Source: an uncultured Spartobacteria bacterium
GTDB taxonomy: Bacteria > Verrucomicrobiota > Verrucomicrobiia > Chthoniobacterales > Chthoniobacteraceae
Length of the DNA stretch: 64,000 bases
Direction of reading: 5' to 3'
Assembly: GCA_903901425.1 (NCBI GenBank)
Contig: CAIURC010000195.1
Span: forward strand, 1 to 64,000
Position 1 is the stretch's first letter. Every line of letters begins with the position of its first letter. Below the pieces are notes generated by a model. That model ran no database searches. It was not told the origin of the DNA and worked only from the letters and a program-made list of their open reading frames with translations. Positions 3,001-19,859 of this stretch are shown here, piece by piece. The position numbers were made by a program, and so were the translations under genes.

Positions 3001-5376
3001 CCCCTCCGCCGCGGCGGCAATCGTATAGCTGGACCCGGTTGCACCGGGGATGTCCGTGGGCCCCTTGCGCCATCGGTACGTAACCGGACCTGTCCCGGTA
3101 GCCAACACGCTGAAACTTGCCGATGCACCCGGGTTCACCGTCCGGTTCACGGGTTGCACCGTGATCCCGGCCGGGTCATTCACGCTTAGAACCGCAGTCA
3201 CACTGGTCGTGCTCCCATCCACACTCGTCACCACCACCGAATACCCGCCCTCGTCTGATTCCGTCACCGCAGCAATCGTGTACGTCGAACCCGTTGCGCC
3301 TGGGATCACCACGCCCCCCTTGCGCCACTGGTAGGTCAGAGCGCCGCTGCCCACCGCCGCCACGCTGAAACTCGCCGTGCCCCCAGGATTCAATGTCACA
3401 CTGGAGGGCTGCGAGGTGATCGTCACCGGGTCGTTCACGCTCAAAAAAGCCGCGGCACTGACCACGCTGGAAGCGATGTTCGTCACCAGCACCGAGTATT
3501 CCCCCTCGTCTGCCTCCACCGCCGAAGAAACCGTGTACGTCGCCCCGGTAGCACCCACGATCGCCACCGAGCCCTTCCGCCACTGGTAACTGAACGGCCC
3601 CGTGCCCGTCGCCGTCACGCTGAAGGTCGCCAGTTCGCCGGGATTGACCGTCGCACCCAGCGGCTGCGCCGTGATGACCACCGGATCGTTCACACTCAGC
3701 ACGGCAACGGAACTCGTCACGGTCCCCGCTAGGTTACTGACCACCACATCGTAACTCCCCTCGTGCGATTCCGTCACCGGGTTCATCGTGTACGTTGAAT
3801 TTGTGGCGCCCGGAACCGCCACCCCGTTCCGACGCCACTGGTAACTAGAAGGGGAACCCGTCACACCCACGCCCAAGGTCACCGGGGTGCCGGGGTTGAC
3901 CGTCGAGCCCACGGGCTGCGAGGTGATTACGGGGGCAACCGTCAACACCGCGCCGTCGCTCACCACTGTTCCCACCACGTTCGTCACCGCGCAGGTGTAG
4001 GTCCCGGAGTGGACTGGTGTCACCGACCCGATCGAATAGGTTGCCGAGGTCGCCCCGGTGATGTTCACGCCATCCTGCCGCCACTGGTAGCTCAGCGTGC
4101 CCGTCCCGGTGGCCGTGACGCTGAAACTGGCAGAGCCCCCCTGCAGAAAGGCACGGGCCGCCGGTTGCGCCGTGATCACCACGGGGTTGTTCACATTCAA
4201 CACCACCGCGGAACTTGTCACGGTCCCCGCCAGGTTGCTGACCACCACGTCGTAACTCCCCTCATCCGACTCCGTCACCGGGTTCATCGTGTACGTTGAA
4301 CTCGTCGCACCCGGAACCGCCACTCCGTTCCGACGCCACTGGTAGAGTGGTGACGAACCAGTGGCCGTCACGCTCATACTCACCACGGTGCCGGGATTCA
4401 CCGTGGACCCCACGGGCTGCGAGGTGATCACCACAGGATCATTCACACTCAGCACCACCGTAGAACTCGTCACACTCCCCAGACTGTTGGATACCACCAC
4501 ATCGTAGCTGCCCTCATGCGACTCCGCCACCGGATTGATCGTGTACGTAGCACCCGTCGCACCAGATATATTCACCCCACCCTTCCGCCACTGATAATTC
4601 AACGGAAAACCCGCAGCCGTTACACTCAAACTTGCCGAATTCCCTGGATTCACCGTCGCATCCACAGGCTGCACCGTAATCGTCGCGCCAACCGTCAGCA
4701 CGGCACCGGTCGAAACCACTGTTCCCACCACATTCGTCACCGCGCACACGTACGTCCCGCCATGGGTGCCGCTCACCGAATCAATCGAGTATGTGGCCAC
4801 CGTGGCTCCACTGATGTTCGTCCCGTTCAGCCTCCATTGGTAACTCACCGGACCTGTCCCAGTCGCCATCACACTGAAATTCACACCCGCACCCTGCAAC
4901 ACCCCCTGACTCACCGGTTGTGCCGTAATCACCACAGGATCATTCACACTCAGCACCACCATAGAACTCGTTACACTCCCGAGGCTGTTGGATACCACCA
5001 CGTCATAATTTCCTTCGTGCGCCTCCACGACAGAATTGATTGTGTACGTGGCACCCGTGGCACCAGACACCGCAACCCCGTTCCGACGCCACTGGTAATT
5101 CAGCGACGATCCGGTAGCCGTCACACTCAAATTCACCAACGTCCCCGCATTCACCGTCGCACCCACAGGCTGCGCTGTGATCACCACAGGATCCCGGCTA
5201 TCCACCACCGTGTCTGTGGAATCCGCACTCACAATCGCGGCAACCACTGGCCCCGCGCTCAAGCACAGAGTCGCGAAAACCGCCATCCACGTCAGAAATC
5301 TTCGGCTATGGTTCAAAAACGATATACGCTCCGTCCAAACCGCTCCGCTCTCCTCTGCTGTGCTCAGGCCTCTCAT
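1..5376 (-). CDS. Giant secreted protein with 11 Ig-like repeats and Calx-beta-like domains (3' end beyond window)
   Basis: I translated this frame by hand; it stays open for 1792 codons from an ATG at 5376 to the left edge with no stop. The ATG overlaps the stop of the upstream gene as ATGA, which suggests translational coupling. Order seen: an N-terminal stretch with a hydrophobic signal segment (about residues 28-50); 11 Ig-like domains of about 83 residues (roughly 5195-2410), each with a core like YQWR and a DxGxYxVVVSN strand; three Calx-beta-like units (about 2420-1370, with motifs such as DGDxxEK); one bacterial Ig-type domain (about 1365-1080); then a domain starting GTYDGLLRP near 1060. 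Such proteins are usually exported and work as adhesins or surface layers; the exact role is inferred. The C-terminus, where a sorting or anchor signal would lie, is outside the window. Coding and frame are certain; function is open. Confidence 0.9.
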   Translation of the reverse strand, partial: MRGLSTAEESGAVWTERISFLNHSRRFLTWMAVFATLCLSAGPVVAAIVSADSTDTVVDSRDPVVITAQPVGATVNAGTLVNLSVTATGSSLNYQWRRNGVAVSGATGATYTINSVVEAHEGNYDVVVSNSLGSVTSSMVVLSVNDPVVITAQPVSQGVLQGAGVNFSVMATGTGPVSYQWRLNGTNISGATVATYSIDSVSGTHGGTYVCAVTNVVGTVVSTGAVLTVGATITVQPVDATVNPGNSASLSVTAAGFPLNYQWRKGGVNISGATGATYTINPVAESHEGSYDVVVSNSLGSVTSSTVVLSVNDPVVITSQPVGSTVNPGTVVSMSVTATGSSPLYQWRRNGVAVPGATSSTYTMNPVTESDEGSYDVVVSNLAGTVTSSAVVLNVNNPVVITAQPAARAFLQGGSASFSVTATGTGTLSYQWRQDGVNITGATSATYSIGSVTPVHSGTYTCAVTNVVGTVVSDGAVLTVAPVITSQPVGSTVNPGTPVTLGVGVTGSPSSYQWRRNGVAVPGATNSTYTMNPVTESHEGSYDVVVSNLAGTVTSSVAVLSVNDPVVITAQPLGATVNPGELATFSVTATGTGPFSYQWRKGSVAIVGATGATYTVSSAVEADEGEYSVLVTNIASSVVSAAAFLSVNDPVTITSQPSSVTLNPGGTASFSVAAVGSGALTYQWRKGGVVIPGATGSTYTIAAVTESDEGGYSVVVTSVDGSTTSVTAVLSVNDPAGITVQPVNRTVNPGASASFSVLATGTGPVTYRWRKGPTDIPGATGSSYTIAAAAEGDEGIYSVVVSNALGSVSSAGAVLSVNDPVVITAQPLSRGVLQGAGVSFAVAATGTGTLSYQWRLDGVNIAGSTSTTYSIGSVTPGHSGTYTCVVTNVVGSVVSNGAALTAAPAITSQPVGALVLPGSPVSFSVTATGTGPLSYQWRKGGVDIAGATGPTHAIASVADSDVGSYSVVVTNAAGSVVSAAAVLEVPEAARVGFGSSVYPGAKGPGELLVPVTVQRLADGAKAVEVRVAASSDTLQPGDYSLPDSPVLRWASGDLSEKTFVVVLRAGRTVAEAGETLRLTLQDPVGAQLGGTGTTTVALTARNPGVLQFGAASLERVKPDTGDLSVELVVRRLHGTSGAVRAEVAVSGGTALATDYVVDRPVVLEWADGDSGEKSVPVLFKAGAAVPVSGKTLQFRLQNLSGGALPGGILSSTVTVRPVALPGTVVFGSASVQAAKAVEGDTVVPITVQRILGGAGPVGVQVAVAGGTAVLGEDYTLPEEAVALGWGDGELGAKSFELRIPEGAQLGALGETVVLKLQAASGGVLIGRTSVVTVKLLGSDTSGPVLAVESPGSGVTVSGGSVLVKGTATDTSEVARVEVKLNDGPAEEAELASPAGGNTVGWMLALVPEQGSNTLKIRAWDARGNASTELVRVFKFSHVRPEFAGTYDGLLRPETTVAELVEGYPLSPGIAEAFGVSRGRGLLTATVSAGGAVSGKLSTGGVVAGFKGMVMRDGSVLFDGKQARFAVRKMVGRVATELGSLSLRVREGDPALLVGELSFADGTVELATVEAQKAVYSAARVLPAGMERVPVDILDPASENGKYTVLFEPLVDEGLETNRGLARTGYPQAAGYARMTVAPAGTVTLTGVLADGTTVSYSNRLAPDGTLPLYLHLYGNRGFVNGTVGFDDQQAASDVSAPELEWYRPAGLAAPYAAGWPEGITVELVGSKYVAPGVPTRTVPVPANPYGVFGPERPVNSVVTDTVPDLVPVELRISGGGLAGEIANVGRVNGLNV

Positions 5377-6461
5377 GGAACTGAACTCAGAGCCAGCCGG
5401 AACCCCACGTTGAAGCCGGGGTAGGCCGGGTCGGGGTAGTCGTCCAGGTACCCCACCAAGCAGGCGTCCGCGAGGCTGTACCAGCCCCCGCCACGGATCA
5501 CCCGGGGCGGCAGCCAGTAGATACCAAAGCACCACTCCCACACGTTGCCGCTCATGTCGTAAGTCCCCAGCTCATTCGCTGCCTTCGTTCCCACCACATG
5601 CGTTGCAGAGCCAGAGTTGTCGTAATACCACGCCACCGCATTCACATCATTGCTCCCGCTGTGCGCGTACCCATGAGTCTGTGTCCCACCACGCGCAGCC
5701 CATTCCCACTCCTTCTCGCTCGGCAACCGGTACCCGTTCGCCGCCCCATTCACCACAGGAACCCGATCTCCAGTCCGATACACAGCCCCATTGGACAGCT
5801 TGTACACAGGCGTCTTCCCCTCCTTCTGACTACGCGCGTTGCACCACTTCACCGCCTGATACCAAGTCACATCTATCACGGGATAATTGCTCCCACTCCC
5901 CGCACCCACACTCCCAATGTCATACCCATTGGACGCTGCCCACGTACGTACCGTCTGAAACTCACCCCACTGCACCTCATACTTCCCAATATAAAACGTG
6001 CTCACAGACAATGCTCCCAACGGGGATGTAGATGGCAGTGTGCCTCCATCCACCTTGATAAACGGTTCCTCCACCGACACCCGGAAGCGCGTCTGCGTCG
6101 AATACTGCCCGTTCCAATCCACACCTGCATCCCAAGTGATTCGAAGGTTCCTTCCAGGTGTCACTGAGTCTCCCACCGCGCCCGTGGCCGAAGTCACAGG
6201 TACATTCCACGTCGCCCCTCCATCCGGCGACACCTGCAAACCGACCGCGAGCGACATAGTCGCCCCCGCCACATCGTAATCGATATCGACCAACTTTGTC
6301 CCGGCACGCTGGGCCGCGCGCACGTTGCTTATGGTTATCTCCGATGATGCAGACCCCGTTAGGATTAAAAACAAACCACTGAAAACAAGAAGAAAACAAT
6401 TCCAGCAGGAAGCTCCTGCTTTCCCTCCAAGACTTTGATTTAGGTGTGAGGCGGCAAACAT
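5373..6461 (-). CDS. Secreted SUMF1/formylglycine-generating-enzyme-fold protein
   Basis: 362 residues. Residues 15-40 are a hydrophobic signal peptide. An N-terminal beta-rich stretch (about 40-135, with VDIDYDV and a DGGATWN motif) precedes a SUMF1-type domain: FYIGKYEVQWGEF, VIDVTWYQAVKWCNARS, YRLPSEKEWEWAARGG, DMSGNVWEW, RVIRGGGW and a closing NVGFRLA. True formylglycine-generating enzymes carry a cysteine pair near the C-terminus. Here the segment between RGGGW and GFRLA has only one cysteine, so a structural or carbohydrate/protein-binding role is more likely than sulfatase activation (inference). It lies 5 bases after the TIR-like gene and overlaps the giant Ig-repeat gene by ATGA, so the three probably form one transcript. 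Confidence 0.9.
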   Translation of the reverse strand: MFAASHLNQSLGGKAGASCWNCFLLVFSGLFLILTGSASSEITISNVRAAQRAGTKLVDIDYDVAGATMSLAVGLQVSPDGGATWNVPVTSATGAVGDSVTPGRNLRITWDAGVDWNGQYSTQTRFRVSVEEPFIKVDGGTLPSTSPLGALSVSTFYIGKYEVQWGEFQTVRTWAASNGYDIGSVGAGSGSNYPVIDVTWYQAVKWCNARSQKEGKTPVYKLSNGAVYRTGDRVPVVNGAANGYRLPSEKEWEWAARGGTQTHGYAHSGSNDVNAVAWYYDNSGSATHVVGTKAANELGTYDMSGNVWEWCFGIYWLPPRVIRGGGWYSLADACLVGYLDDYPDPAYPGFNVGFRLALSSVP

Positions 6462-8701: not shown

Positions 8702-9163
8702 CTAGCCCAGCGACTCGCCCGCCAATTTCAAGGCCTCCGCGCGAAGGTCGTCGCTGATCCGGAAGTGATTTGCATCCAGCGCGTCAAGCAACGGACGCAC
8801 GTTGGCGATCACGCCTTCCTGCTTTGCTTTCAGCAGTAGCCCCACAGTGCCAGTGACGGGAACCCCAAGGCGCTGGGCCACTTCACGAGCCTTTCGGTCA
8901 TCAACGATGATGCGCAGACCCTTCCCATAGGCCAGCGCAATGGCTTCTGACTCTCCTGGATCAACCAGCAGTCGCAGCGCAGCCACCATGCCCGCATCGC
9001 GGGGCTGTTCCACGTTCATCCAGACTGGCCGCGAACCAAACTCGCGATTGACCGCCTGCGGCGCAAAAATGGGATCAAGCAGTGCAGGCAGCAGATCCAG
9101 TCGTCCAATGCGCTCCAGCCCGATTCAACAGGCGCTGTCCACGACAGCGGCTATCTTTACCAT
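8702..9163 (-). pseudogene. DUF3368 PIN-like toxin gene with a nonsense codon
   Basis: Reading from an ATG at 9163, the frame gives MVKIAAVVDSAC, then TGA at 9127-9125, then IGLERIGRLDLLPALL and the rest of a DUF3368 protein through to 8702. Family members have a hydrophobic residue, normally Leu, where the stop sits (consensus like DxSPLIALAKIG), so a single change from TTA would make the TGA. Ignoring it, the length (153 codons) is normal for the family. Downstream motifs match: PGESEAIALA, IVDDRKAREVAQRLG, GTVGLLLKAKQ and the C-terminal HFRISDDL. The only intact piece is an internal ATG frame (9019-8702, 105 aa) lacking the first PIN acidic residue (Asp9). The ATG overlaps the antitoxin stop by 7 bases. 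Confidence 0.85.
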
Positions 9164-9363
9164 GCGAGCTCTTGGGAAAGCTCACTGGCGGGATAGTCCG
9201 CCACCGGGATGCCATACTGGCCCAGCACATCCATGAATGCGCGTTTCGAGTAGCCCGCGACTTCAGCGGCCTGCCCGAGTGAAAGACGTCCAAGCTCAAA
9301 AAACTTCAACGCCATCATCAATCGCCCCTTCACCGCACTTACGAAAGGCGGCAGAGTGGTCAT
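9157..9363 (-). CDS. UPF0175 family antitoxin
   Basis: 68 residues from the ATG at 9363. The open frame extends upstream to 9600, but that part is Pro/Ser-rich with no family similarity, so I chose the internal start. The recognisable UPF0175 core is FELGRLSLGQAAEVAGYS, then FMDVLGQYGIPV, then a short acidic tail: a small helix-turn-helix-like protein that pairs with DUF3368 PIN toxins. The stop overlaps the toxin start by 7 bases, the usual arrangement. With the partner toxin broken by a stop codon, this antitoxin may be an orphan. Confidence 0.85.
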   Translation of the reverse strand: MTTLPPFVSAVKGRLMMALKFFELGRLSLGQAAEVAGYSKRAFMDVLGQYGIPVADYPASELSQELAW

Positions 9364-9670
9364 GAGTTGTTCAGGCTGGCCTGGCTCCTCCTTGGTCCTT
9401 GAGGGGTTGGTTGCAGGAGGCAAGCTTTCCGCTTTTCCGGGTTGGCTGGAGCCCCCGGTGCGCCTGCCCTGGGTGCCCCGCTCCCTGGGGCAACCAAACA
9501 CAGCATTGTTTTTGTCTTTTGCTTCGCTCTGAGGCGGGTTGAGCGCGACGCGGCGTGACAAAGGCTTTACAATCGGACGGACTTTTGATTCAGCGTACAT
9601 GGCCCCCTGCCTCCCCCCTGAATCAACGAGGCTTTGTTCGGTCCTCCGTTAACCCAAACCTGAGCAACAG
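9364..9670. other. Divergent intergenic region
   Basis: 307 bases between the minus-strand antitoxin start and the plus-strand kinase start. The minus frame stays open through most of it, but the composition looks like chance. Promoters for both genes should lie here; I see no box pair clear enough to annotate. Confidence 0.5.
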
Positions 9671-10858
9671 ATGTCGGATCGCGCTCCCAGTAAAGTTGCA
9701 TTTCTGAGGAACCTCCCCCTTTTTTTTGGCCTGGATGGGGAGCAGCTTGAAGCCGCGGCCCAAGCTGCGACGGAGGTACAGCTTCCATGCGGTGAGACTC
9801 TCTTCCATAAAGGGGATCCAGCCGACGCAATCTACATCATCGTGGACGGCTCCGTGCGGATACACGACGGGGAGTTCACGCTTACCTACCTGCCGGCTTT
9901 CACAAGTTTTGGGGAGTCCTGCATCACCGCTCATCCGTTCCGAACAGCCTCTGCAACAGCAACCGCAGCTACAAAACTCCTGAAGCTCGCCCTGAACTCC
10001 AGGTGTTTCCCAATCGAACAGAACCCGACATTCCTGCGCGCGATCGTCTCCCTCCTATTCAAACGCATTTCGGAAAAAGACACCCTGGAGGGCGAGATCC
10101 AGCTCAACCTCAAAGAAATCCAGCGGCAAAGGGATGAACTTCTGCAGATTAATAATTTGAAGAACAAGTTATTCACCGTCATTGCACACGATTTGAGGAG
10201 TCCTTTGGAGTCACTCTCATGGCTCACCGGGTGGGCATCCAAGTCTTCTGACCGGCTGACCAAGGAGAAACTTGCCGAGAGCCTTGACTACATTCATGGA
10301 GAATCACAGAGCGCGGGTCGTCTGCTGGAGAATCTCCTCGATTGGGCGAGATCGCAGTCCCACCAGATCCAGCTCAACCCGAAAAGCGTGAATCTCTTCG
10401 AGGTCGTAGATGAATCGCTGGAGTCGATCGCGGGCTCTGCAAAAAGAAAAGGCGTTGCCCTGTGGAATGAAATCCCCAAAGACACCTCCGTTACTGCCGA
10501 CCGCAATACTCTCGCAACCATCGCGAGAAACCTCATTTCCAACGCGGTGAAATTCACCCAGAATGGCGGCAGGGTCCGCATCTCCGCGACCGAGGCAGGG
10601 GAAAAAATTGTGTGGTGCACAACCGACAACGGTATCGGGATAGCTCCGGAGCGCCTCGGTTTGCTCCTCGCATCCGATACGCAATCGAGCACCCACGGAA
10701 CTGCCAACGAAAAGGGTGCCGGCCTGGGGCTCAAGCTCTGCCGGGAGTTTGCCGAAAAAAATGGCGGTACAATTCATGTCTCCAGCGAACCAAACCGCGG
10801 CACTTGTGTTACAGTGACGCTCCCCGGAAGCGCCCACCAAGACCCCCGCTTGATTTGA
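9671..10858 (+). CDS. Cyclic-nucleotide-binding sensor histidine kinase
   Basis: 395 residues, no membrane segment. Residues 10-110 form a cyclic-nucleotide-binding domain: GETLFHKGDPADAIYIIVDGSV, then FGES (Glu82) and FRTASATA (Arg91), the Glu and Arg of the phosphate-binding cassette. A helical linker (about 125-165, probably coiled coil) leads to the kinase: H-box FTVIAHDLRSPL with His173, N-box RNLISNAVKF (Asn287/291), G1 DNGIGI (319-324) and G2 GAGLGL (349-354). All catalytic motifs are present. No response regulator is adjacent. It lies 131 bases before a soluble-adenylyl-cyclase-like gene on the same strand, so cAMP (or cGMP) from that enzyme is the obvious candidate ligand (inference). 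Confidence 0.93.
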   Translation: MSDRAPSKVAFLRNLPLFFGLDGEQLEAAAQAATEVQLPCGETLFHKGDPADAIYIIVDGSVRIHDGEFTLTYLPAFTSFGESCITAHPFRTASATATAATKLLKLALNSRCFPIEQNPTFLRAIVSLLFKRISEKDTLEGEIQLNLKEIQRQRDELLQINNLKNKLFTVIAHDLRSPLESLSWLTGWASKSSDRLTKEKLAESLDYIHGESQSAGRLLENLLDWARSQSHQIQLNPKSVNLFEVVDESLESIAGSAKRKGVALWNEIPKDTSVTADRNTLATIARNLISNAVKFTQNGGRVRISATEAGEKIVWCTTDNGIGIAPERLGLLLASDTQSSTHGTANEKGAGLGLKLCREFAEKNGGTIHVSSEPNRGTCVTVTLPGSAHQDPRLI

Positions 10859-10989
10859 TGCGAAAAGGAAGGAGTCCCCAAGGGAGTCTGCCAACAGCAA
10901 GTGATGAGAACGATGCTCACACATAGCTTTGCCCCCCGGCTGGGACGGATTGAACAGCGCCTGCGTGTTTGTCGCCCCCCGGCAGTCTG

Positions 10990-13900
10990 ATGAATCCCCA
11001 GCCCGACAGATTCAGCGCCTCCGTCATCCAGCCGTCGTTCCTCGCTCAGGCAATCTCCCCTCACATTTCCACGCTGGCTCTGGAGGATGTCTGCAGGAAA
11101 ACCGCCTCTTCCGCTTGCAACGATGGCACCCTCTTCAAATGCATCATTCTGGTCACCGACATCGCAAACTTCACCTCGCTCACCGAGCGTCTAGAGCACT
11201 CTGGACCGTCGGGTGTGGAAAGCCTCTCACGTGTGATCAACGGGTGCTTCGCCCATTTGATCAACCTTGTTGAGGCCCACGGCGGACACCTCGTCACATT
11301 CGCAGGTGATGCCCTCATTTTTCTCTGGCACCAAGACGGCGAATCAATCGAAAGGACCGCCCACCGCGCTGCTCAGTGCGCACTCCAACTCAACTCTCTG
11401 CGTGTACAAACCTCGCCCAAAGAGGCGCAGCTCTCCGTGCGGGTCGGCATCGCCCTTGGCGAAGCCGTTCACATGATCCTCGGGGGCAAAAGCGGCATCT
11501 GGATTCCCCGGCTCGCCGGGCCTGCAGTTTCAGAGGCTTTCAAAGCAAGCCGCTATGCGGCTCCGGGCCAGGTTTCCGTGTCCAGATCGGCCTCCCTGCT
11601 GCTACATTCCTGTGCTGACTCGTTTCCCATATCGGATGACTACTCTGGGCTCAGAGCGGTCGCTTCATTGACGCCCCGCTCTCTAATCCGCCCCGCGATC
11701 GCTGTGGAAGACGTTGAACAACTCTCGGGCTTTGTTCCCCACGCGATTTTGCAGCGGATTGCGTTGGGGCACCAGGACTGGATCGCTGAATTCCGCACCG
11801 TTTCGGTGATTTTCATACAAATACCCGGCTCATCCGAAGAGAACCTCTCCTTTGTCCGATCACAGACCGTTGTTCACAAGGCCCAAGATCTCCTCGAGCT
11901 TTACAACGGATCGCTCCACAACCTGAGCGACGACCAACCCAGCCTCACGTTGGTTGCTGCTTTTGGGCTCCCCATGCATGCCCACGATGACGACGCCGCC
12001 CGGGCGGTCCGCTTCGCCCTCAGCATCAGTTCTCACCTCCACTCGCTCGGATGGAAATCGGGCATCGCCGTCACAACCGGACGCATGTATTGCGGAATAC
12101 TCGGTGCGCCGCAACGCCATGCCTACTCGTTACTGGGAACCCCCATGAACCTGTGCTCGCGGCTCGCCGCCATCGCGGACGGAAATGTCCTCTGCGATGA
12201 CACGACCCGAAGGGCGGCAGAAAAATGGATGCGTTTCGATTTCGTTAAAGAGGCTGCCCTCAAAGGGAAATCGCAGACTCATCGAATCTTCCGCCCCGTT
12301 GGCCCCTGCTCACCCGCTGTTCCTTCCCGCCGCCTTGTTTGGGGCCGTGAACTCGAAAAGACGCAACTCAAAAACATCGTCACAAACCTCCGAAACGGCT
12401 GCAGCGGCGGCTTCGTTCTTATCGAGGGCGAAGCTGGCATCGGAAAATCCACGCTCCTTTCAGACCTTCTCGGCACGGCCGCGGAGTTAAACATCAGGTT
12501 CCTCAGCGGCACGGGTGATTCCTTCACGCACACCAGCAGTTACCATCCATGGCGCCGGATCTTCCATACGCTGTTCCCACCCGAGGACAGCCACTCCAAG
12601 GCAGCCCCCTCCCAAAAACTCTCTCGCACCCTTCAGCAACACCCCAAGGGCGGTTCTCTCGCACCGCTTCTCAACACACCCCTCGGCCTCAACCTCCCCG
12701 AAACGGAAATCACTGCCCAACTGACAGGCCGCGCCCGCGCGGAGGCAACCCGCGATCTCCTTTCCCATCTCCTGGTGTCTGCAACTCAAGCAGATCCGAT
12801 CCTCCTTGTTCTCGATGACGCGCATCTGGCGGACTCCGAATCTCTGGAGTTTTCGCTGTATCTTTCGCGGAAGGTTCCAAACCTGCTTCAGGTGCTGGCA
12901 GCTCGCCCCTCCGCTGCAAGCGTTCCAGAGCTTTGGGAAACGGTCCGCGACACAGTCGTTTCTCACCACACCCACATTCCCCTGGGAGCACTGGAGGAAC
13001 CGGCATTGCGGGAACTTGTCCAGGATAAACTCCAGGCCACAGAGCTGCCGCCGGAAATCCTTCAGATGATCCGTAGCACATCGGGTGGAAACCCCTTTTT
13101 CTCGGAGCAACTGGCTCAAATGCTTTTGGAATCGGGTTTTGTCACTGTCGATTCAGGAACCTGCTTGATCACACCGAGTTTCAAGGCTCTTCCACTCCTC
13201 AGTCTCCCTCTGACGGTTCAGGCGGCCGTTAACCAACGTCTTGACCGCAGACCAGCGCGCGAATCTCTGGCAGTAAAGGTGGCCAGCATCTTGGGAAACC
13301 AATTTTCATTTGCGGCTCTTCACTCCATTCACCCTGTTGCAGACGACCTAGTTCATCTTGCCGCGTCACTGGAAAACCTAGTCACCGCCGGCCTCCTTCT
13401 GAAATCCCGCTCCCTAGAGGGCGATCATTTTTTCTTCAAACACCAAATCATACGGGAGGTTGCGTATGGACAACTTCCATTTTCTCAGCGAAAATACCTC
13501 CACCAGGGGTTTGCCGAGTTTCTCGAACAGGTGGAACCGCTCAACCATCCTGTTCTGGCTCATCACTGGCTAAAAACGGACTCGCTCTCTCGGGCCATCA
13601 GCCACCTTGACCTCGCGGCCACTCAAGCCCTCACGCGCCATGCAAATGCCGAGGCCGTTGAATTCCTCACCAACGCCATACAGACGGCCCTGAACATTCA
13701 GGAAAAGCAGGATCGATACCGCTTCGGTCGCTGGCACCGGCAACTCGGGGAGGCCTACCACCGCCTCGGCCGCATGGAACAGAGTCGCAAATGTCTGGCC
13801 GACTCCCTGCGGATCCTCCAGCACCCGGTCCCGTCGCCATCCCGCATCAGGCTCTACGGGCTTCTCAAAGAAACCGCTATTCAGTGCTGGCGCCAGGTTA

Positions 13901-14997
13901 CCGGCCACTTTCCCACACCCGCCTCAGGAAGGGTCGCAGAGGAACTGGCGGAGGCAATCCGCGCAGACAACGCGCTCGCAGAAATCGCCTTCTTTACTGA
14001 CGATCTATTAACCTCCGTATTTCATGTGTTGCATGGCCTTAACCTCGCTGAGGCGCTCGGGCCATCCGACCAAAAGGTGGAGATGTACGCCGCCGTGATG
14101 CTCCTCACCTCCGCAATGCCGCTACAATCGATCGGCGACCGGTATTTTGCACAGACAGAAAGCGCCTTGGACCGCCCCGTACACCCGGTTTCTCTCGCCT
14201 ATGTGCGCCAACTCATGGGGGTCTTTCTCAATGGCCGGGGCCGATTCGCCCTTTCATTCCGAATGCTGGAGGATGCCGTCCACACCTTTGACCGTTTTGG
14301 TAACAGGCGAAGATTGGAAGAGTGTTGGGTCAACATTTTCTATCTCCATTTGTACCGGGGCGAGCTCGCAACCGCAAAATCGAGCCTGCGCCTCTTGCAA
14401 GACTCTGCCTCCGACCGGCAGGACCCGCAGACCATGGGTTGGGCCGTTGCACTGGAGGCTCATCTGCTCCTGGCTCTCAATGGCCCAAATGCTGTCCTCG
14501 AAAGACTTGCCCGGCTGCCCTCCCCTGAGTGGGACAGGCTGACCCACGCCGCCTTCCATTCCAACCTGGCAGCAGCACATTTCCGAAGCGGCAACATGGG
14601 TGCCGCCCGCGAACATGCCGTCCAAGTCCTTGAATCATTGGCTCGCACCCCACCCGTCTCGTACACCTCCCTCCTAGACTACTCCCACACCGCAGAGGTT
14701 TTCTTGGGTCTCCTCAGCCGGGCTGATCCCAACTCTCCATCCGCAGACCTTTCCAGGAACGCTCACAGAGCCTGCAAAGCCATGCGCGCGTTCGGCAGCG
14801 CTTTTCCCATCGGCCAGATCCGCGCGCAACTCTGGAGCGGCACTGAGGCATGGATCAACGGCTCCAAACAAAAAGCGTTGCGCCTCTGGGAAAGAAGTCT
14901 CTCCGCTGCCCTCCACCTCGATTTGCCCGAGGAAATCGCGTTCATCAAATCTCACCGATCCTCCCTAGAATCCGCCAAGAGCCGCCTCCCAGAGTGA
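10990..14997 (+). CDS. Soluble-adenylyl-cyclase-like protein: two class III cyclase domains, AAA ATPase, TPR-like tail
   Basis: 1335 residues from the ATG at 10990; a TTG at 10969 could add seven. The first cyclase domain (about 45-240) has both metal aspartates: VTDIANFTSL (Asp57) and FAGDALIFLW (Asp107). The second (about 265-435) has the transition-state pair in TPMNLCSRLA (Asn387, Arg391) preceded by GRMYCGILG, very like the C2 half of animal sAC. So one polypeptide supplies a complementary catalytic site. Next comes an AAA/STAND-type ATPase: Walker A GEAGIGKS (480-487) and Walker B ILLVLDDAHL (604-613). The last ~500 residues are helical and TPR-like. No membrane segment. The sAC lysine before the second Asp (KFAGD) is Thr here, so substrate choice (ATP or GTP) cannot be read safely. 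Confidence 0.92.
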   Translation: MNPQPDRFSASVIQPSFLAQAISPHISTLALEDVCRKTASSACNDGTLFKCIILVTDIANFTSLTERLEHSGPSGVESLSRVINGCFAHLINLVEAHGGHLVTFAGDALIFLWHQDGESIERTAHRAAQCALQLNSLRVQTSPKEAQLSVRVGIALGEAVHMILGGKSGIWIPRLAGPAVSEAFKASRYAAPGQVSVSRSASLLLHSCADSFPISDDYSGLRAVASLTPRSLIRPAIAVEDVEQLSGFVPHAILQRIALGHQDWIAEFRTVSVIFIQIPGSSEENLSFVRSQTVVHKAQDLLELYNGSLHNLSDDQPSLTLVAAFGLPMHAHDDDAARAVRFALSISSHLHSLGWKSGIAVTTGRMYCGILGAPQRHAYSLLGTPMNLCSRLAAIADGNVLCDDTTRRAAEKWMRFDFVKEAALKGKSQTHRIFRPVGPCSPAVPSRRLVWGRELEKTQLKNIVTNLRNGCSGGFVLIEGEAGIGKSTLLSDLLGTAAELNIRFLSGTGDSFTHTSSYHPWRRIFHTLFPPEDSHSKAAPSQKLSRTLQQHPKGGSLAPLLNTPLGLNLPETEITAQLTGRARAEATRDLLSHLLVSATQADPILLVLDDAHLADSESLEFSLYLSRKVPNLLQVLAARPSAASVPELWETVRDTVVSHHTHIPLGALEEPALRELVQDKLQATELPPEILQMIRSTSGGNPFFSEQLAQMLLESGFVTVDSGTCLITPSFKALPLLSLPLTVQAAVNQRLDRRPARESLAVKVASILGNQFSFAALHSIHPVADDLVHLAASLENLVTAGLLLKSRSLEGDHFFFKHQIIREVAYGQLPFSQRKYLHQGFAEFLEQVEPLNHPVLAHHWLKTDSLSRAISHLDLAATQALTRHANAEAVEFLTNAIQTALNIQEKQDRYRFGRWHRQLGEAYHRLGRMEQSRKCLADSLRILQHPVPSPSRIRLYGLLKETAIQCWRQVTGHFPTPASGRVAEELAEAIRADNALAEIAFFTDDLLTSVFHVLHGLNLAEALGPSDQKVEMYAAVMLLTSAMPLQSIGDRYFAQTESALDRPVHPVSLAYVRQLMGVFLNGRGRFALSFRMLEDAVHTFDRFGNRRRLEECWVNIFYLHLYRGELATAKSSLRLLQDSASDRQDPQTMGWAVALEAHLLLALNGPNAVLERLARLPSPEWDRLTHAAFHSNLAAAHFRSGNMGAAREHAVQVLESLARTPPVSYTSLLDYSHTAEVFLGLLSRADPNSPSADLSRNAHRACKAMRAFGSAFPIGQIRAQLWSGTEAWINGSKQKALRLWERSLSAALHLDLPEEIAFIKSHRSSLESAKSRLPE

Positions 14998-16924: not shown

Positions 16925-17152
16925 GTGAATGGCAGAAGCAAACTGGCGCACCGTGCCACCCCGGAAGTCGAACGCAGCATTCCCACAGCCATTCTTGCCA
17001 TTTCCGACCGGATCAATTCCGGACCGAGGGCTGGGAGGGGAAGGATACCTTGGCGGGCGCGTTCCGGTGCCTCGGAACTGACCGGGGCGGAGATCGCCGC
17101 CGAAATAGCCGCCACCCGTAAAAACCGCCGATCCTGCAGATCCGGCGAATGA
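16925..17152 (+). CDS. Possible antitoxin, N-terminus replaced by repeat copy B
   Basis: A 75-codon frame whose stop overlaps the PIN toxin start as ATGA, the normal spacing for an antitoxin. Only the last ~27 residues (ELTGAEIAAEIAATRK followed by an Arg-rich tail) look like an antitoxin C-terminus. The first ~40 residues are encoded by the dispersed repeat at 16935-17040, which has a non-coding sister copy at 7561-7659. The simplest reading is an antitoxin gene truncated at its 5' end by the repeat. Chance overlap is the alternative. Confidence 0.35.
   Translation: MNGRSKLAHRATPEVERSIPTAILAISDRINSGPRAGRGRIPWRARSGASELTGAEIAAEIAATRKNRRSCRSGE
16935..17040. repeat. Dispersed intergenic repeat, copy B
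   Basis: Second copy of the repeat at 7561-7659, same orientation. The core 16995-17040 differs at about two of 46 positions. This copy sits inside the 5' part of the putative antitoxin frame upstream of the PIN toxin. Confidence 0.85.
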
Positions 17153-17571
17153 CCGCCCCGGATCTTGCCCCGCTCTGGGTACTCGACACCCATGTTGTGG
17201 TTTCCGCTGCGCTCACAGCCGGCGGCACCTGCGATCGGCTGCTGCGTGCCGCCGTTGCAGGTCGGGTACGTCTGGCGTGGAGCGCGCCTCTGCTCGCCGA
17301 ATACCGTGCGGTCCTGCTCCGGCCGAAGTTTGGATTTTCCCGCCCGGTTGTCTCCGCGCTGCTGGCTGTCTTTGACCCCGCGCACCAGGTTCCGGCCGGA
17401 GCGTCCCCCGCCCTGCCAGACCCAGACGACGCGGTGTTCTTGGCTGGCGCGCTTGCCACCCCGGATCAGGTTCTTGTCACCGGCAACGCCGCCCATTTTC
17501 CCGCCAAACTTAGCCGTCCCGTCCGGATTCTCTCACCTGCCGAAGCCCTGCGGGAGTTGGAGCGGGAATGA
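17149..17571 (+). CDS. PIN-domain toxin (COG1569 type)
   Basis: 140 residues. The PIN pattern is complete: VLDTHVVVSAAL (first Asp, residue 13), SAPLLAEYRAVL (Glu ~51), then ALPDPDDAVFLAGALA with the acidic DPDD cluster, and VTGNAAHFP at the end. COG1569 members are putative toxin RNases; the acidic residues bind Mg2+. GC content and codon use match the surroundings. The start overlaps the end of a truncated antitoxin-like frame, so this toxin may be active without its normal partner, or silent because its promoter was lost. Confidence 0.85.
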   Translation: MTAPDLAPLWVLDTHVVVSAALTAGGTCDRLLRAAVAGRVRLAWSAPLLAEYRAVLLRPKFGFSRPVVSALLAVFDPAHQVPAGASPALPDPDDAVFLAGALATPDQVLVTGNAAHFPAKLSRPVRILSPAEALRELERE

Positions 17572-18032: not shown

Positions 18033-18244
18033 GCAGAGAGGATTTCATCCCGAACAAAGTGCAGACGGATCATCCGGGGTGCCTCCGCTTCAACCCCAAA
18101 ATGACAGCGCACGGCATCCCTCACCATTTCACGAAGTTCCGCCACCGACTCCCCCTGGGTGGCAATCGCGTGACCCATTGCCACAGCCACATAGCCCCCG
18201 TCCACCTCGTCTTCGCGCACCTCAAAGATGATCTCGCTCACCAA
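18029..18244 (-). CDS. HicB-like antitoxin
   Basis: 71 residues: SEIIFEVREDEVDGGYVAVAMGH, then IATQGESVAELREMVRDAVRCHF, then PRMIRLHFVRDEILS. This is the partial-RNase-H HicB fold of short antitoxins, a family often misnamed as a 2-oxoisovalerate dehydrogenase subunit in databases. It lies directly upstream of the frameshifted hicA with a 4-base overlap. HicB neutralises HicA and usually represses the operon; no DNA-binding tail is visible here. Confidence 0.85.
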   Translation of the reverse strand: MVSEIIFEVREDEVDGGYVAVAMGHAIATQGESVAELREMVRDAVRCHFGVEAEAPRMIRLHFVRDEILSA

Positions 18245-18419
18245 GGCACTATCCCCCCCGGAAACCTGCCCTTCAAGCCCCGGAGTTGATTCTCCCTCAC
18301 GGATCGCCTCCGTGACTCCGATGATCCGGACCGCGCAGACCGGGCTTGACCCGGCTCGGTTTCATCGCTTTGACGGGGCTACGGTGCGAAGTCTTCCCCA
18401 CCGTGCAGAATTTCCCCGC

Positions 18420-19859
18420 ATGCGGCTTTTCATTCGATTCACTTTGCGACTGGTCTGGGCACTGGCTCTGATCTCGGCAGGCCTGCATGCCGCGCCTGCC
18501 CCCAAAACCAGCACCCGCAACGCACTGATCATTGGAAACGCCCGGTACGAACCTTCCGTTGGGCCGCTCCGGAATACGCGGAACGATGCCAAAGCCATCG
18601 CCAAGGCGCTCCGAGAACTCGGCTTCTCCGTGATCGAAAAACACGACATCACCCGGGACCAGCTTCTGAAGGCCATCTTGGAATTCAGATCCACCCTTGC
18701 AGGGGCCGAAGTCGCCCTCTTCTATTTCGCCGGACACGGAATTTCGGTGGGCGGCTCCAACTATCTGGTTTCTCTGAAATCGGGTTACACCCCAGAAGGA
18801 GCGGACGATGCCACGCTCCGGATGCTGGCCGAAACCCGGCTACTGAACGTGGAACAACCGCTGGCCGACATGGTGAGCGCGGGAGCCCGCTGCAACATCA
18901 TGATTCTGGACGCCTGCCGGACCACCGCACTCGCGCGCGTCGGCAGGACCCGGGACCTTCAGAATCCGGGCGGCCTTTCCGAGATGCGACCGCCGGCCGG
19001 GTCCTTGGTTGCGTTTGCGACCGACGCCGGCCAGACGGCGCTCGACGGAGACGGCACCAACGGTCTCTACACCGAGGAACTCCTCAAACACCTCCGGACC
19101 CCTGGGATCACCATCGAACAGGTTTTCAAACGCACGCGGGCGGGGGTTCTGGAACGCTCTGAGGGAAGCCAGATCCCCGCGGAGTACTCGCGTCTGGTCG
19201 GGGACGACATTTTTCTTGCCGGAACTAGCACGGACTCCCCGGAGCCCCAGACTGCCGCACTGGCGCCCACCCGACGCGCTACTCCTGTTCCACGTCCGGC
19301 GGATCCTCCGCCGGGGCCACTGCCCTCGATCAGAGAAATTCTTGGCTACGCGGGTTTGGGAAAAGCGCGGGAATGCACGGAAGCGCTGCGCACACTTGCC
19401 GGAACCACCGGGGCAGGAAACTACGCGGTGGCACCGCTGGAAGTTCTGCTTGAAAAGGTCAAAGCGGACCTCAAAGACCCGAGCGGATCCACCATCAAAC
19501 CGGCGCTTGCTGCAAGCACCTGCACGTTGGTCTTGGAAAGTCTGGACGCGTGTCTTCCACCGGACAGCCAGAATAAGATCCAACTCAGGGCGCGGGCGCT
19601 GAACCGCCGGGGCGACGCGTTGCTGCTGCTCGGGCAACCCGAGGAAGCGTTGCACGACTTTGATTCCGCGATCCCGCTGCAACCGGAAGACTCCTACATC
19701 CTCTACAACCGCGGCCGCGCCTATCTCGCATTGGGCCGCACCGAAGAGGCGCGCGCAGACTTCACTGCGGCGGCGAATCCAAAATGGAAACAGCCCGGGG
19801 CGCTCAAACTTGCCACCCAAGCCCTCTCGGGATTGAAGGAATCGGCATTGAAACCGTGA
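18420..19859 (+). CDS. Secreted caspase-fold (peptidase C14) protein with TPR tail
   Basis: 479 residues from the ATG at 18420, which places a signal peptide (residues 4-24) at the N-terminus; the frame is open further upstream. The caspase-like domain (about 33-275) has ALIIGNARYE, the catalytic His in YFAGHG (His106) and the catalytic Cys in ILDACR (Cys166). A Pro-rich linker follows. The last ~110 residues form two TPR-like repeats (RRGDALLLLGQPEEALHDFD and a YNRGRAYLALGRTEEARADF-type unit). Family members are Arg/Lys-specific metacaspase-like proteases or inactive scaffolds; here both catalytic residues are present. Confidence 0.9.
   Translation: MRLFIRFTLRLVWALALISAGLHAAPAPKTSTRNALIIGNARYEPSVGPLRNTRNDAKAIAKALRELGFSVIEKHDITRDQLLKAILEFRSTLAGAEVALFYFAGHGISVGGSNYLVSLKSGYTPEGADDATLRMLAETRLLNVEQPLADMVSAGARCNIMILDACRTTALARVGRTRDLQNPGGLSEMRPPAGSLVAFATDAGQTALDGDGTNGLYTEELLKHLRTPGITIEQVFKRTRAGVLERSEGSQIPAEYSRLVGDDIFLAGTSTDSPEPQTAALAPTRRATPVPRPADPPPGPLPSIREILGYAGLGKARECTEALRTLAGTTGAGNYAVAPLEVLLEKVKADLKDPSGSTIKPALAASTCTLVLESLDACLPPDSQNKIQLRARALNRRGDALLLLGQPEEALHDFDSAIPLQPEDSYILYNRGRAYLALGRTEEARADFTAAANPKWKQPGALKLATQALSGLKESALKP

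Follow-up and report, generated by a model that had tools for sequence, protein, structure and literature searches.

A soluble adenylyl cyclase-like protein without the bicarbonate-binding residues, encoded beside a histidine kinase with a cyclic nucleotide-binding domain in a Spartobacteria genome

Introduction

In the animal soluble adenylyl cyclase (sAC, ADCY10), an ATPase and a long helical tail follow a tandem of two cyclase domains, C1 and C2, an order shared by the protein described here. Orthologues of sAC reportedly occur in bacteria, according to a 2002 analysis by Roelofs and Van Haastert. Our literature search on bacterial sAC with an ATPase tail, on kinases with a cyclic nucleotide-binding (cNMP) domain and on cAMP in Verrucomicrobia found little that was directly relevant. 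In human sAC, the metal ligands are D47 and D99, pyrophosphate is contacted by K144, recognition of adenine falls to K334 and T405, the residues acting in C2 are N412 and R416, and K95 and R176 bind bicarbonate (PMC12250328, PMC12867704). According to a recent report, regulation of sAC by bicarbonate is found chiefly in mammals (PMC12867704). The sea urchin and salmon enzymes, each of which lacks one of the two bicarbonate residues, are unresponsive to bicarbonate (PMC12867704).

We analysed a 64,000-nucleotide stretch of DNA (hereafter the window) from an uncultured Spartobacteria bacterium (GenBank assembly GCA_903901425.1, contig CAIURC010000195.1), in which a gene for an sAC-like cyclase, P0002, follows a gene for a histidine kinase, P0001. 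A preliminary description had proposed that the two may form a complete second-messenger relay, in which the kinase reads the product of the cyclase, and had likened the domain order of the cyclase to that of animal sAC, the bicarbonate sensor.

Results

Both open reading frames (ORFs) are intact on the + strand of the source contig (Table 1); the kinase gene lies directly upstream of the cyclase gene, with zero genes between them. Residue numbers of P0002 are counted from the ATG at 10990, and an alternative start at the TTG at 10969 is possible. The intergenic gap showed neither a terminator-like site on the + strand nor a sigma-70-like promoter. Because this gap measures 110–131 bases, co-transcription of the two genes is uncertain. 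Other genes of the window include a DUF3368/UPF0175 toxin–antitoxin-like pair just upstream (8702–9600, − strand), an FGE-sulfatase-domain protein (5373–6461, −), a PIN_3 gene downstream (17149–17571, +) and a caspase-domain (Peptidase_C14) protein with TPR (18228–19859, +).

Table 1 Features of the kinase–cyclase locus, in window coordinates
Feature	Position	Strand	Evidence
Soluble cNMP-binding histidine kinase P0001, 395 aa	9671..10858	+	ORF; Pfam cNMP_binding, HisKA, HATPase_c
P0001 cNMP-binding domain, residues 36–107; E82 and R91 of the phosphate-binding cassette	9776..9991	+	Pfam; alignment to PKA regulatory subunits and CRP family
P0001 HisKA domain, residues 164–230; phospho-acceptor His173 in AHDLRSP	10160..10360	+	Pfam; residue positions
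P0001 HATPase_c, residues 277–385; N box LISNAVKF (N291), G1 DNGIGI, G2 GAGLGL	10499..10825	+	Pfam; residue positions
Intergenic gap, 131 bases (110 if the start is TTG 10969)	10859..10989		ORF coordinates
sAC-like cyclase P0002, 1335 aa from ATG (1342 aa from TTG 10969)	10990..14997	+	ORF; Pfam; PDB sequence match
P0002 C1 cyclase domain, residues 51–207; metal Asp57 and Asp107; Thr103 and Phe184 at the bicarbonate positions	11140..11610	+	Pfam; PDB match; alignment; model
P0002 C2 cyclase domain, residues ~244–438; Asn387, Arg391; Asn311 and Ser380 at the adenine positions; Gln316-Pro317 for Asp-Lys	11719..12303	+	PDB match; alignment; model
P0002 AAA/STAND ATPase, residues 452–628; Walker A GEAGIGKS (480–487), Walker B LVLDD (606–610)	12343..12873	+	Pfam; alignment; residue positions
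P0002 helical tail, residues ~900–1335; weak TPR matches; aligns to the end of relatives	13687..14994	+	Pfam; alignment

Profile searches for domain boundaries placed Pfam domains in both proteins. In P0002, Guanylate_cyc matched in two stretches (5.6e-16), followed by AAA_16 at residues 452–628 (1.3e-20) and weak TPR matches; the PF00211 match, at 59.1 bits, exceeds the curated Pfam cut-off of 21.9. The top PDB matches by sequence, like those by fold, were all ADCY10; the best sequence match, human ADCY10 (E 1.9e-24), covered C1 and then C2. For residues 1–452, an AlphaFold2 model built from 57 sequences (pLDDT 87.9, pTM 0.87) had human sAC as its best fold match (Foldseek E 5.8e-31, TM 0.81). 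By VIA, the model matched human sAC with Z 44, the next class, membrane cyclases (AC9), with Z 35, and 6yii with Z 26.5; identity to human sAC over the structural alignment is ~20%. The tree built from 68 catalytic regions puts P0002 in one supported group with ADCY10 and bacterial relatives of the type that keeps the adenine-reading Lys/Thr pair; P0002 and ADCY10 both sit on long branches. Sequence, fold and tree thus place P0002 nearer to sAC than to the other class III cyclases. Its two cyclase domains are followed by a P-loop ATPase, then by a long helical tail; the domain order proposed in the preliminary description is borne out by Pfam, the top PDB match and the fold match. Judged from sequence and the predicted structure, the likeness to sAC is far beyond chance.

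We then compared the residues that matter for function in human sAC. The alignment equates D47 with D57, D99 with D107, K144 with R151, N412 with N387, R416 with R391, K334 with N311, T405 with S380, K95 with T103 and R176 with F184. Since C1 gives the two metal Asp residues and C2 gives the transition-state Asn and Arg, there is one active site at the domain interface, as sequence and predicted fold show. The four residues, Asp57, Asp107, Asn387 and Arg391, had been named beforehand; their positions are exact from ATG 10990, and they fit the single asymmetric active site of sAC. At least 66 two-domain relatives of P0002 were found, spread over many phyla. Among 66 bacterial relatives examined, both metal Asp residues are invariant and the C2 Asn and Arg nearly so.

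The adenine-reading pair is altered: P0002 has Asn311 and Ser380 where human sAC has Lys334 and Thr405. The Lys/Thr pair is kept in ~20 of the 66 bacterial relatives; since two thirds depart from it, the pair is not a defining feature of the wider group. At sAC positions 339–340, P0002 has Gln-Pro, where most other relatives have Asp-Lys. With the adenine pair altered, cGMP, mixed or low activity is possible, and Asn311/Ser380 together with the loss of Asp339-Lys340 could leave P0002 with low or no activity. Catalysis is plausible, its substrate and strength being uncertain; the product is probably a cyclic nucleotide, most likely cAMP.

Neither bicarbonate residue is present, as Thr103 and Phe184 take the places of Lys95 and Arg176. 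Because both binding residues are gone, bicarbonate is unlikely to activate P0002, and a reading of P0002 as a bicarbonate sensor is not supported by its residues. None of the 66 bacterial relatives has Arg at the position of sAC 176. The lack of this switch in every bacterial relative examined fits the view of bicarbonate control as mainly mammalian (PMC12867704).

The kinase, P0001, matched Pfam cNMP_binding at residues 36–107 (2.2e-12), HisKA at 164–230 (2.4e-9) and HATPase_c at 277–385 (4.5e-24), and has the phospho-acceptor His173 and normal N and G boxes of a HisKA histidine kinase. Its N-terminal cNMP domain can be aligned to those of PKA regulatory subunits and CRP-family proteins, and the motif FGE82...R91TA is kept. 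The reading of P0001 as a soluble histidine kinase whose cNMP domain retains Glu82 and Arg91 was therefore right in its domains and its exact residue positions. The domain has the cassette Glu and Arg of cyclic nucleotide-binding domains and may bind cAMP or cGMP. Its best-domain match is the weakest among the cNMP proteins of the genome (49.9 bits vs 61–88). No full-length homologue of P0001 was found in 384 genomes of the class, matches elsewhere covered only the kinase core, and a search of viral contigs found no relatives.

Proteins like P0002 are widespread. A wide scan of genome contigs yielded 80 loci, most with an ORF showing recognisable C1, C2 and AAA, in Chloroflexota, Cyanobacteriota, Acidobacteriota, Myxococcota, Actinomycetota, Pseudomonadota, Verrucomicrobiota and other phyla. 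Their occurrence across so many phyla makes the sAC architecture an established bacterial kind. P0002 is, by its sequence, a further member of these known, widespread bacterial sAC-like cyclases, one that lacks the bicarbonate site and has a changed adenine pocket. One such cyclase, in a record titled Klebsiella pneumoniae MAG (L073), groups with another gammaproteobacterial MAG, and the label may reflect a binning error.

The pairing with a kinase is another matter. A cNMP-kinase adjoined the cyclase in none of the 12 loci with a homologue that were retrieved from the class, including that of Chthoniobacter flavus Ellin428 (L066), a species of the same family as the genome of the window, and adjoined none of 72 cyclase ORFs in loci from the wide scan, for which at least 1.3 kb was in view upstream of 64 and downstream of 56. 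Pfam searches of 105 neighbour proteins of the relatives revealed no recurrent partner among the matches listed (the best 25 of 125 families), and a direct kinase search of the relatives' loci found no neighbour with both cNMP and kinase domains. Thus, an sAC-like cyclase and a cNMP-kinase do not form a conserved module in the class loci, the wider loci or the 384-genome class sample. Other neighbours were seen: CRP-type regulators adjoin sAC-like cyclases in two other bacteria (L079:10306-11088(-) and L084:4857-5609(-)), and a conserved protein of ~304 residues adjoins the cyclase in C. flavus (L066:10057-10968(+)), whose copy has no Pfam match, and in another Verrucomicrobiota genome (L037:5814-6770(+)).

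We also surveyed cyclic nucleotide signalling in the genome of the window, which has 13 class III cyclase domains and 8 cNMP domains in 7 proteins: P0001, a second kinase, an MscS channel, a glucose-6-phosphate dehydrogenase fusion, an Fe-S protein and two single-domain proteins. No CRP-type HTH exceeded the cut-off and no clear CRP regulator was seen in this genome, which is 96% complete, so that kinases are credible effectors. The glucose-6-phosphate dehydrogenase carries a C-terminal cNMP-binding domain (L169:2902-4983(-), on contig C211 of the same genome), a fusion that suggests direct cyclic nucleotide control of a metabolic enzyme.

The second cNMP-kinase has family matches in 97 of the 384 class genomes. 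Within the order, a PF00211 cyclase lay in the fetched stretch in 7 of 15 loci of this family vs 0.45 expected (Poisson P ~5e-7, a value that is post hoc, because the clustering was first spotted by eye in the coordinates, and that comes from related genomes). The partners were CHASE2-cyclases accompanied by a FecR-domain protein, or else an FHA- or a TPR-cyclase; a cluster in which a cNMP-histidine kinase lies with a FecR-domain protein and a CHASE2-cyclase recurs in five order-level relatives (L204, L206, L208, L212 and L213), and FHA- or TPR-cyclases lie near a cNMP-kinase in L216, L218 and L210. Beyond the order, profile searches found no such cyclase near this family, which there often adjoins mutL. 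Given that P0001 shares only 21% identity with the second family, the order-level clustering is an analogy to the pair in the window rather than evidence of its homology. A plain verdict that the pairing is meaningless was rejected in view of the clustering seen in the order.

Discussion

We consider P0002 to be probably an active sAC-like cyclase that is not regulated by bicarbonate; the kinase encoded next to it may read its product. We hold this combined reading about as readily as we doubt it. P0002 would make a cyclic nucleotide, most likely cAMP, at the C1–C2 interface. Its ATPase and helical tail more likely gate the cyclase, as in STAND proteins, through some ligand. In the cytosol, the cNMP domain of P0001 may sense the product and change autophosphorylation, and the phosphate would pass to a response regulator encoded elsewhere.

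That P0001 reads this product is suggested by adjacency, by the shared strand and by the recurrent clustering of cNMP-kinases with cyclases in the order. The relay proposed in the preliminary description therefore survives in part: this exact pair is not conserved in relatives, contrary to what a conserved adjacency would have required, but cNMP-kinases do occur with other class III cyclases in the order, and this general pairing keeps the idea reasonable. On adjacency and the analogous pairs, we regard the relay as plausible, with a likelihood approaching an even one.

A competing explanation, which we take seriously at a likelihood somewhat under even, is that the two are chance neighbours: both would be real signalling proteins, with P0001 sensing the cell's overall pool of cyclic nucleotide, or some other ligand, and not the product of P0002. 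The pairing is kept in no relative locus, and 13 cyclase domains and 7 cNMP proteins give 0.04 adjacent pairs expected, a number that is small but not negligible across many windows scanned. Chance is argued against by the position of the kinase, immediately upstream on the same strand with nothing intervening, and by the other cNMP-kinase family that recurrently clusters with cyclases in the order.

P0002 could also be a degenerate cyclase, an sAC-like NTP-binding protein that has lost cyclisation and serves as a nucleotide- or metabolite-sensing scaffold like 6yii. The change of the adenine pair to Asn/Ser, of Asp339-Lys340 to Gln-Pro and of Lys95 to Thr would suit such a role, as does the presence of 6yii among the fold matches. 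We nevertheless think it unlikely, as both metal Asp residues, the Asn and the Arg are kept, a basic residue, Arg151, stands at the pyrophosphate position, and the match to the active human enzyme is far closer. A complete bicarbonate-responsive sAC relay, to which the domain order and fold might point, is highly improbable, given the neutral or hydrophobic T103 and F184, the missing Arg176 switch in all 66 relatives and the unresponsiveness of sea urchin and salmon sAC with a single residue lost (PMC12867704).

If P0001 and P0002 do form a relay, they would constitute a CRP-independent bacterial path from an sAC-type cyclase to a histidine kinase, and would help to reveal the input to which the ATPase and helical tail of sAC-like enzymes respond. 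A broader and doubtful conjecture is that a CRP-less Verrucomicrobiota lineage feeds cyclic nucleotide signals into two-component phosphorelays through repeated pairs of cNMP-kinases and different class III cyclases, and that such a pair has in this case recruited an ADCY10-like cyclase whose nucleotide pocket is re-shaped and whose trigger is not bicarbonate.

Compared with known systems, P0002 has in common with animal sAC the C1–C2 tandem with metal Asp residues in C1 and Asn and Arg in C2, and differs from it in the replacement of Lys95/Arg176 by Thr/Phe, of Lys334/Thr405 by Asn/Ser and of Asp339-Lys340 by Gln-Pro. Pseudomonas aeruginosa has an ATP-binding protein, PDB 6yii, that resembles class III cyclases and shares the tandem cyclase-like fold, but it is much more distant from P0002 than sAC is, and P0002 keeps the catalytic residues. 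Closer in full-length architecture are the bacterial sAC-like cyclases of Chthoniobacter flavus (L066), Verrucomicrobia (L075), Chloroflexota (L057 and L078) and Archangium (L058), with ~28–33% identity to P0002 over ~1300 residues; none of the bacterial two-domain sAC-like cyclases examined adjoins a cNMP histidine kinase, and ~20 keep the Lys/Thr pair that P0002 has lost. On the kinase side, the cNMP-HisKA-HATPase kinases of Verrucomicrobiota (L204, L206, L208, L210, L212, L213 and L218) are soluble and lie near a class III cyclase, as in the window, but their partner cyclases have a single catalytic domain, whereas the partner of P0001 is an sAC-like tandem.
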